DNA from: Candidatus Pelethosoma merdigallinarum
GTDB lineage: Bacteria; Bacillota_I; Bacilli_A; RF39; UBA660
Direction of reading: 5' to 3'
DNA: 38,585 bases
Assembly (NCBI GenBank): GCA_018716065.1
Contig: DVKJ01000024.1
Location: forward strand, 1-38,585
The position numbers and the translations under genes are program-made. Below, piece after piece: positions 9,541 to 12,461 of this stretch. The notes beneath the pieces are model-generated. The model was not told where the DNA came from. It saw nothing but the letters and a program-made list of their open reading frames with translations, and did no database searches. Numbering within the stretch: position 1 is the stretch's first letter; each line of letters opens with the position of its first letter.

Positions 9541-9541
9541 C

Positions 9542-9560
9542 TGTTTGCAAATTGCAAACA
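9542..9560. promoter_or_regulatory. 19-bp palindrome, operator-like
   Basis: TGTTTGCAAATTGCAAACA is a perfect inverted repeat with 9-bp arms around a single A. It starts 2 bases after the preceding stop and ends 28 bases before the -35 of the surface-protein gene. There is no T-run, so it is more likely a dimeric-repressor or activator site than a terminator. Confidence 0.6.
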
Positions 9561-9570
9561 TACGTCCATT

Positions 9571-9579
9571 GGGGGGGGG
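9571..9579 (+). repeat. Nine-G homopolymer upstream of the -35
   Basis: A run of nine G lies 9 bp before the -35 of the surface-protein promoter, in an otherwise AT-rich intergenic region. Such tracts change length by slipped-strand mispairing and can switch or tune promoters. A sequencing or assembly error in length is possible. Confidence 0.9.
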
Positions 9580-9588
9580 TATTTGGTA

Positions 9589-9618
9589 TTGACAAATACT
9601 TCTCTTTTTTTGTACAAT
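9589..9618 (+). promoter_or_regulatory. Promoter of the surface-protein gene
   Basis: A perfect TTGACA (9589-9594) and TACAAT (9613-9618) are 18 bp apart. A 7-bp inverted repeat, GTATTTG (9579-9585) and CAAATAC (9593-9599), overlaps the -35 and begins at the last G of the homopolymer. Confidence 0.8.
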
Positions 9619-9665: not shown

Positions 9666-12320
9666 ATGAAACTAAAAAGAAAAATCAAGAGAAAATGGGA
9701 AAATATCGGTACGAATCAAAAGATGATGATGGTATTCGTTAGTTTACTTTTCTTTATTACGGTAGGTTATGCGGCAATTAACCAAGTACTTAAAATAACG
9801 GGTTATGCAAGTCTTGATAAAGGTGACGGCATGATTTTTACCAGTGTTGGAATCAATAATAATAATCAAGCAACTATAGAGAAAGATGCCTCTATCAAAG
9901 CCAAAACATTAGTAAATACTCAAATAAGTTTTCAAAGTGCAGGATCCATAACATTTAATGTATCCGCACAAAATCAAGGAACTACAGATGCGAAGCTCAT
10001 TGAAATCAAAGGATTAGAAGAAAGTAACATCAAAGAACCCACTTGTATTCAAATATCTGTACAAGAACACAATGTAGGAGATTTAGTTTTCCCAAGTCAA
10101 ATCAAAAACTTTACGATTACCATAACGAGTACATGTTCAACTTATTCAAGTAAAGAACTAGATTTACATTTTGTCTATGAAAAACAAGAGACCATTAATG
10201 GAGTATTACCAGTACCTACTTTAGGAAGTACTACTACAGATTTATTAAATAATAGTGGTGATGGAACTTACAATTATATGGATGGAACATATTTAAAAGG
10301 AGAACAAGATTCTAATTATATTTGGTTTGATGGGTTCATGTGGCGAATCATGGGTAAAAATAGTGATGGAAGTATTCGTATGATTACCGAAGAAAATGTA
10401 ACAGGAATCCCATGGGGAGCAAGTAAGACTGCCCAAGATTATGACAATAGTTATGTGAATGATTGGTTAAATAATTATTTTTATCCAAAGTTAGAACATA
10501 AAGATTTACTTGTAAATCAAACATGGTGTAGTGAAACAACAACTTCTTCATCTTCATCAAGAACAACCTGTACTAGTAATTTATCCAGTGTACAGAAACC
10601 TATTGGTTTATTATCATTGGATGAATATAATCTGGCAAGTGGCGGTTCAAGTTATTTAGATATATCACAATATTTTTGGACAACTACGCCAAATAGTGCC
10701 TCGTATGCGTGGAGCGTGTACAACAGTGGCATTGCGGGCAACGGCTATGTGACGAATGGGCTCGGTGTTCGCCCAGTTGTAGGGATTTCCTCTGATACGA
10801 CCATTACCGGAGGTAATGGTACTCTAACAGAACCATATGTGATCGGAGAAGTAAGTGATGTCACAGGAAGTTTAAAAGATAACAGTCATGTAGGAGAATA
10901 TGTAACGTATGCAGGAAGAAATTATCGTGTAGTAGAAACATCAAATCAAGGAACAAAATTAATCTTAGATGGATATTATGATAGTAATAATGATGGAATA
11001 ATAGAAGAATCCGATAAAATGACATATGGAGAAAATTGTACATTATGTACAACCATAAATGAAGATAGCTTTGTTAATTGGATCAGTAATAATAATGAAG
11101 TAGATAAAAATAAGCTAGTTTCAACAACATGGTATCGAGGAGATAATTTTGACTATGAGGATAATTATAAAGATAATTTAGAAAGTATAAGTAACCCTTA
11201 CGTTGGAAGAGTTGGATTAATACGAGTAGGTGAAATGTTATCGGGACAAAGTGAAACCATTCTTTCAAAGAATCATACAACAAGTAATAGTTATAATAAT
11301 GCTCAACATTATTGGACAACTACGCCATATAGTGCATCGAATGCGTGGCGCGTGAGCAACTATGGCAGTGCGTACAGCCACAATGTGACGGGTGCGTACG
11401 GTGTCCGCCCAGTTATCATGATCCACCCAGGGGTTCCTATTACAGGAGGACAAGGAACACCAAATGAGCCATATACATTAGGAGAAGCTCCACTAACAGC
11501 AGCTCAATATTTAATTAAAAATAAATTAAGTAGTGATATTAATACGAGTCCAACAAATGGACTGTTTGCGATCGGAAATAGTGGCGAGTTAACGACTTCA
11601 ACTTCTCCAAGAGAATATCGATATATCGGAGCTAATCCAGATAATTACATTCAATTTAACAATGAATTATGGCGAATTATTGGAATTTTTGAAGGACAAT
11701 TAAAAATTATCAGAAAAGATTTATTAGAAAATAAAACATGGGATGATGGTGGTACTACTAATTGGAATGATAAGCCCATGCAAAAGTATTTTAATGGAGA
11801 ATATTTAGAAGGAATGGACGAATCGTCACAAAATAAAATAGCTGATTACACTTGGAAATTAGGTGGTAGTAGTACTTGGGATGATGTAACTGCTCAGATG
11901 TTTTATGAATTGGAAAGAGGGTCTTTAACTTCAACTGGAGATTCAACAGAATGGAGAGGAAAAATTGCTTTAATGTATCCAAGTGATTATGGATTTTCAA
12001 CCAGTGGAGGAAGTACAACGAATCGAAGTAGTTGTTTAGCTACAGCATTATTTAGCTGGTATAGTGCGAATGATTGTAAAAATAATAGTTGGTTATATGA
12101 TAGTTCCAATGATCAATGGACTTTAACTCCGTTTGTACTCGCACGAACACGCGCGCCTAGTATAGGAGCTCCTTTGTCATACATTCTATATAAAAGTGGA
12201 GATGTCGATCTTATGGATGAATTTTCTTCTTATAGTGCTCGTCCTACATTATATCTCCAACCTACTGTAGAAATCGCTTCCGGTATAGGAACAAGTTCTG
12301 ATCCATATATCTTAAAATAA
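9666..12320 (+). CDS. Exported repeat surface protein with two DGR-like variable regions
   Basis: This 884-aa protein has a basic N-terminus (residues 1-25) and one hydrophobic export or anchor segment (about 28-45), followed by a GYAxI...ITGYA stretch reminiscent of SipW-dependent or camelysin-like exported proteins. After a beta-rich region come three related modules, each with a [YF]xxFxxxxWRI[MI]G-like strand. Modules 1 and 2 each end in a WTTTP...AW.V...GVRPV segment (residues 338-371 and 550-583) resembling DUF6273/C-type-lectin-like targets of diversity-generating retroelements. Module 3 ends in a related but non-variable SARPTLYL segment. The two variable segments are about 56-57% G+C against AT-rich surroundings. 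The ATG at 9666 follows AGGGTG; the earlier TTG frame has no ribosome site. No reverse transcriptase lies in the window. Confidence 0.8.
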   Translation: MKLKRKIKRKWENIGTNQKMMMVFVSLLFFITVGYAAINQVLKITGYASLDKGDGMIFTSVGINNNNQATIEKDASIKAKTLVNTQISFQSAGSITFNVSAQNQGTTDAKLIEIKGLEESNIKEPTCIQISVQEHNVGDLVFPSQIKNFTITITSTCSTYSSKELDLHFVYEKQETINGVLPVPTLGSTTTDLLNNSGDGTYNYMDGTYLKGEQDSNYIWFDGFMWRIMGKNSDGSIRMITEENVTGIPWGASKTAQDYDNSYVNDWLNNYFYPKLEHKDLLVNQTWCSETTTSSSSSRTTCTSNLSSVQKPIGLLSLDEYNLASGGSSYLDISQYFWTTTPNSASYAWSVYNSGIAGNGYVTNGLGVRPVVGISSDTTITGGNGTLTEPYVIGEVSDVTGSLKDNSHVGEYVTYAGRNYRVVETSNQGTKLILDGYYDSNNDGIIEESDKMTYGENCTLCTTINEDSFVNWISNNNEVDKNKLVSTTWYRGDNFDYEDNYKDNLESISNPYVGRVGLIRVGEMLSGQSETILSKNHTTSNSYNNAQHYWTTTPYSASNAWRVSNYGSAYSHNVTGAYGVRPVIMIHPGVPITGGQGTPNEPYTLGEAPLTAAQYLIKNKLSSDINTSPTNGLFAIGNSGELTTSTSPREYRYIGANPDNYIQFNNELWRIIGIFEGQLKIIRKDLLENKTWDDGGTTNWNDKPMQKYFNGEYLEGMDESSQNKIADYTWKLGGSSTWDDVTAQMFYELERGSLTSTGDSTEWRGKIALMYPSDYGFSTSGGSTTNRSSCLATALFSWYSANDCKNNSWLYDSSNDQWTLTPFVLARTRAPSIGAPLSYILYKSGDVDLMDEFSSYSARPTLYLQPTVEIASGIGTSSDPYILK
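10677..10778 (+). repeat. DGR-like variable region VR1
   Basis: This 102-bp segment encodes residues 338-371 of the surface protein and aligns without gaps to 11313-11414. The copies share 81 of 102 bases. Differences fall almost only at codon positions 1 and 2, mostly where one copy has A. The shared end GGTGT(T/C)CGCCCAGTT is a candidate homing-initiation end. Confidence 0.65.
11313..11414 (+). repeat. DGR-like variable region VR2
   Basis: This is the second copy, encoding residues 550-583, in the same frame and of the same length as VR1. Sites that read TAC, AGC, CAC, TAT or GGT here correspond to other AAY-derived codons in VR1, as expected if both were copied from one AAC/AAT-rich template with adenine mutagenesis. 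Confidence 0.65.
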
Positions 12321-12348: not shown

Positions 12349-12382
12349 ACTAGTACTGATGAATATGAGTACTAGTTTTTTT
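12349..12382 (+). terminator. Intrinsic terminator of the surface-protein gene
   Basis: ACTAGTACT (12349-12357) and AGTACTAGT (12368-12376) form a perfect 9-bp stem followed by seven T. Confidence 0.9.
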
Positions 12383-12461
12383 GTGGGATAAAATGTGTGA
12401 TTTAGAAGATTGTTCTTATGAAAAAGAGAACGTGAAAATAAAAAATAATCTAAATATCATA

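Follow-up and report, generated by a model that had tools for sequence, protein, structure and literature searches.

The stretch of DNA analysed here (the window) is a 38,585-nucleotide contig of Candidatus Pelethosoma merdigallinarum, and those of its features that are described below lie on the forward (+) strand. A co-directional gene for an ABC_trans_CmpB-like membrane protein (PF06541; 9031–9540) ends 30 nt before a tract of exactly nine G (G9; 9571–9579). The initial annotation had placed this tract 9 bp before a perfect TTGACA, which was confirmed: the gap sequence TATTTGGTA separates G9 from a −35 element at 9589–9594. A good promoter was also correctly predicted behind the tract. The −35 element is followed by an 18-bp spacer (9595–9612), the end of which is T7-G with the T7 run at 9605–9611, and by the −10 element TACAAT (9613–9618). 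The two hexamers match sigma-A/70-type sequences at 11/12 positions, and their spacing lies within the 16–19 bp of such promoters. In agreement with the proposed exported product, the gene downstream encodes an exported or surface protein of 884 aa from an ATG at 9666 (9666–12320) that has a hydrophobic signal at its N terminus and carries DUF6273 domains. Searches with this protein found no relatives in the PDB and no match in NCBIfam. An ordinary terminator-like hairpin (ACTAGTACT..AGTACTAGT) with a T-run and no G tract follows the surface gene (12349–12383, identified by eye).

The window contains a single run of eight or more G, where 0.03 are expected from shuffled sequence. We rejected a second upstream promoter with G9 as its spacer, since no TTGACA-like site was seen by eye at the right distance. 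Between the upstream gene and the tract lies an inverted repeat, TGTTTGCAAATTGCAAACA, that has no T-run (9542–9560; −8.1 kcal/mol for 9541–9570). TGCAA-type palindromes of this kind lie shortly 5′ of several G tracts (the window repeat, L012, L024 and L076), and are also found in the sister genus G005 and near the tracts of another relative, G033.

The nine-G tract belongs to a repeated module

In the source genome (G000; 1.32 Mb in 66 contigs, 91% complete), runs of eight or more G occur 17 times, each exactly nine G long. All 17 sit in one module of the form G9-TATYTGnnn-TTGAYA-(16–19)-TACAAT/TATAAT or a close variant, which rules out a unique promoter accident; the window tract is one member of a module family. 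In two additional copies the tract is interrupted by an A (GGGGGGAGG and GGGAGGGGGG), giving 19 copies in all. Most modules precede dispersed paralogous exported proteins that start with MRTRQKQRIIIGTLCAVIIGLAVGYAVLSQ or MKLKRKIK. At the end of one contig (G000:C20:1–300, L026), a G9 module whose −10 is broken is followed by no surface gene and is apparently dead. A quadruplex of two tetrads was discarded as an explanation because it is not conserved, the TATCTG copies being without the extra GG.

Within the genus, the module recurs in congener G002 (four G9 copies and one GGGGGAGGG) and in G001 (one copy, G8), resulting in a set of 25 modules from the three genomes. No module with the same flanks was found outside the genus among 193 family genomes. 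One match there (G102) is without the T-run of the module and looks like chance, as does a match named Bacteroidales (L075), which lies in unrelated sequence. A phage origin was rejected, with no match in viral contigs. The layout of the module is constant, with a 9-bp gap to the −35 in 24/25 modules and spacers of 16–19 bp. Mean pairwise identity is 98% in the G9 columns, compared with 59% in the sequence immediately before them and 71% across the gap.

The tract is predicted to form one arm of a conserved hairpin

At the window locus, G9 and the adjoining TATTTG can pair with CAAATA and a pyrimidine tract to form a predicted 14-bp stem-loop (9572–9606), comprising a 5′ arm (9572–9585), a 7-nt loop (9586–9592) and a 3′ arm (9593–9606), and then T7. 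The −35 element falls within the loop and the start of the 3′ arm, and the T7 run is both the terminator-like tail and a portion of the promoter spacer. The predicted stability was −15.5 kcal/mol (z −6.48), and 0/200 shuffled sequences were as good. Any G tract followed by pyrimidines folds to some degree. A terminator scan returned 9571–9607 as the sole terminator-like site in 3.5 kb, with about 1.4 expected by chance. The element ranks in the top 0.12% of the 42-nt windows of the contig, alongside ordinary terminator-like hairpins; the few other such hairpins that were viewed by eye contain no G run.

Folding of all modules gave stems of 13–15 bp, loops of usually 7 nt and mostly z-scores from −2 to −6; the L012 and L107 modules fold poorly. 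The stem-loop is followed by a T-run, as in an intrinsic terminator, in 23/25 modules. The 3′ arm opposite G9 is rich in G-U pairs. The remaining arm pairs differ between copies and match within each copy (TATTTG/CAAATA, TTATTG/CAATAA and TATATG/CATATA). Swapping downstream halves between copies weakened the pairing, with 0/3000 permutations as good, a test that ignores the relatedness of the copies. Similarly, an alignment of eight copies had standard pairs in 97.3% of pair cells, compared with 62–72% when slid, again with relatedness ignored. Changes from G to A in the L071 and L073 copies still permit pairing with U. Structure is thus kept by paired changes, as judged by tests blind to relatedness, and this signal is weak in the TATC subtype, which has a short upper stem and little covariation.

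The gene upstream of the module is co-directional at 24/24 readable sites. Its stop codon lies within 50 nt of the tract at about half of the sites, often at 6–50 nt. Another T-run precedes the module at several sites, and termination by the module would be redundant there.

Tract length in the genus and in family relatives

Tract regions are 9 nt long in 23/25 modules of the genus, and 21/22 uninterrupted tracts have nine G, the exception being the eight G of G001. For the source genome and G002, all 21 uninterrupted tracts are exactly nine, with no length difference between copies (95% lower bound for the share of length nine, 0.87), an outcome that is unlikely if lengths varied freely between loci. 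As the consensus of a metagenome-assembled genome hides minority lengths, this uniformity argues against frequent differences between loci and not against all slippage within a population.

In relatives, poly-G tracts occupy a different place. A tract of seven or more G lies between TTGACA and TANAAT in 35/193 family genomes (32/148 genera); a reversed-pattern control over the family genomes gave no such spacer matches. The 138 listed sites of this spacer type have tracts of 7 to 16 G and spacers of 14 to 23 bp. Among these sites, 17/20 groups with identical flanks within one genome hold more than one tract length, for example 11, 12 and 13 in G022, or 13, 16 and 16 in G165. By analogy, the layout corresponds to that of promoters known to phase-vary through their spacer (PMC4235727), and our limited literature search found no report of spacer G-tract switching in these organisms. 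Spacer tracts of G7–G16 precede exported or pilin-like proteins in G022, G029, G039, G094, G130, G143, G165, G166 and others (L178–L207), and 14/15 of the downstream genes that were read begin with a hydrophobic signal or a pilin-like segment. The modal length accounts for 21/21 tracts in the source genome and G002 and for 67/115 spacer-type tracts in 16 relatives (Fisher P = 8e-5); against the most uniform relative alone (17/20), the difference is not significant (P = 0.11).

Further arrangements occur elsewhere in the family. The tract lies 14 bp before the −10 in G008, with G8 at 18/20 fetched sites, and 5 bp before the −10 in G033, with G9 at 18/20 fetched sites. The sister genus G005 (L103, L165, L166 and L167) has a leader hairpin composed of G8–10, TAAATATTTA, CCCCTC and T7, which has a U-tail and no −35/−10 behind it. 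This hairpin is placed directly before a Shine–Dalgarno site and is preceded by a GTGTGCAATATGCACAC palindrome; it is possibly a variable attenuator. In G024 (L079, L091, L102 and L148–L153), behind a spacer tract of 9–14 G comes a leader inverted repeat (TATCCTAGTCA..TGACTAGGATA) extending up to the start codon.

Variable blocks and diversity-generating retroelements

The surface protein had also been credited with regions like those diversified by retroelements (DGRs). Variable blocks are indeed present: block 1 (10677–10787) has a GC content of about 0.5, compared with about 0.3 around it, and NNC/NNT codons between constant codons; block 2 (11313–11423) shares this design and has matches of 78–80% at four further loci of the genome. 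Judged from sequence, the NNC/NNT variation is what template-A mutagenesis would leave. The machinery is a different matter, as neither an intact reverse transcriptase in the 91%-complete source assembly nor a template repeat for these blocks in the same genome (degenerate-pattern and DNA searches) was found. A DGR-like reverse-transcriptase fragment of 143 aa is present in the source genome (G000:C54, L070 3180–3608), apparently as a remnant.

A complete-looking DGR occurs in the sister species G003, where a protein with this type of signal precedes an accessory-like gene and a reverse transcriptase; in its variable/template repeat pair (L074 1572–1696 and 1994–2118), 21/21 mismatches are at template A. 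In G002, a template-like stretch beside a reverse transcriptase is similar to the variable block in a source-genome gene under G9 control, with 10/19 core differences at template A; the remaining core differences are presumably due to species divergence. Two layers of diversification on one protein family are therefore plausible at the level of the genus only, because the assembly of the window has just a reverse-transcriptase remnant and no template was found.

Discussion

We think it somewhat probable that the module joins a terminator to a promoter and so insulates each surface gene, G9 being retained for its role as a pairing arm. In read-through RNA from the co-directional gene upstream, G9-TATTTG would fold onto CAAATA-CTTCTCTT, and transcription is predicted to end at the T-run. 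This run of T would double as a spacer segment in a sigma-A-type promoter, the −35 lying in the loop and 3′ arm and the −10 behind, such that the surface gene would initiate its own transcript directly downstream of the T-run. The nine G would be maintained for their pairing with C or U in the opposite arm. With one module per dispersed paralogue (19 copies, one apparently dead), surface genes are probably insulated from the housekeeping operons that precede them. The tract, the promoter match, the repeated module, its uniform length, its hairpin potential, the covariation and the co-directional upstream genes form the sequence basis for this proposal, from which we infer that the hairpin ends transcripts, that transcription starts from the promoter and that a change of one base in tract length would have little effect. 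Like an intrinsic (Rho-independent) terminator that overlaps a promoter, the module has a stable stem, a 7-nt loop, a T-run, a co-directional gene before it and a promoter directly behind. It differs in that its 5′ arm is an invariant G9 predicted to pair with a loose C/U tract, and in that the same module is repeated before a whole family of surface genes.

The initial annotation had favoured phase variation via G9, which is plausible for the family, where tracts in relatives vary, and weak at this tract, given its uniform length and its place in a hairpin arm. Under this alternative, slippage of G9 would alter the output of the surface-gene promoter, nine would be the commonest and perhaps the high state, and the assembly would report the majority length. 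We regard such a contingency locus as rather unlikely here. Tracts above seven G are classed as hypermutable, and the window G9 belongs to this length class (PMC4235727); poly-G promoters in the family differ in length among otherwise identical copies in 17/20 groups, and near-identical G005 sites have 10, 9 and 8 G. Homopolymers and repeats in or upstream of promoters can matter, as in Bordetella fim, where a change from C7 to C8 at fimX lowers the transcript 3.8-fold (PMC1891110), and in Mycoplasma gallisepticum vlhA, where GAA repeats lie about 40 nt upstream of the start (PMC6258824), and it is possible that G-tract length affects promoter strength from upstream. However, the window tract lies outside the −35/−10 spacer, 9 bp upstream of the −35, and so has neither the spacer geometry nor the reading-frame position of a contingency locus. 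Its uninterrupted relatives in the source genome and G002 are 21/21 at nine (P = 8e-5 against the 16 relatives, P = 0.11 against the most uniform), and A-interrupted, presumably locked copies persist and keep their pairing. That the tract is the arm of a conserved hairpin explains its fixed length by itself. As in the homopolymer promoters of Neisseria porA/fetA and Bordetella fim, a G/C tract lies close to a surface-protein core promoter; in contrast to them, it is upstream of the −35, has a uniform length of nine over 21 copies and belongs to a hairpin, and it is the relatives within the family that have a spacer tract of variable length. The vlhA system is likewise similar in having numerous surface paralogues under individual promoters, with a repeat about 40–50 nt upstream of the start and conserved flanks, but its repeat number varies between loci, with 12 considered the active state (PMC6258824), whereas here the length is the same at all loci.

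Strong conservation of the tract and its flanks, their constant spacing to the −35 and a position that suits an activator site would also fit an element in which CAT-G9-TATNTG is read by a regulator or aids polymerase, the dyad being an operator. Since the dyad arms change with compensation and do not hold one fixed sequence, structure fits better than recognition, and the G tracts of relatives stand at differing places relative to the −35/−10; we consider such a protein-binding or structural promoter element improbable. Least probable is that the module merely spread by duplication with its gene family and that G9 has no function of its own. The copies are paralogues, many of them located close to contig ends, as expected of a repeated family, but G9 is far better kept than its flanks (98% versus 59–71%), and instability would be expected of a G run this long.

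The fused terminator-promoter may have a wider setting. DGRs and the window protein have variable blocks in DUF6273-type domains in common, although the assembly of the window retains only the 143-aa reverse-transcriptase remnant and yielded no template repeat. Tentatively, and with some doubt, we suggest that poly-G is a lineage-wide diversifier of surface expression, acting as a spacing switch in about 32 genera, as a variable leader-terminator arm in the sister genus and as a fixed arm before DGR-diversified genes in the genus of the window. Among uncultured gut Bacilli, the spacer-type G tracts have the appearance of a large, so far undescribed repertoire of phase variation. The length-uniform G9 hairpin-promoter would be a compact cassette, and could explain how surface genes are scattered in the housekeeping operons of a small genome without being coupled to them.
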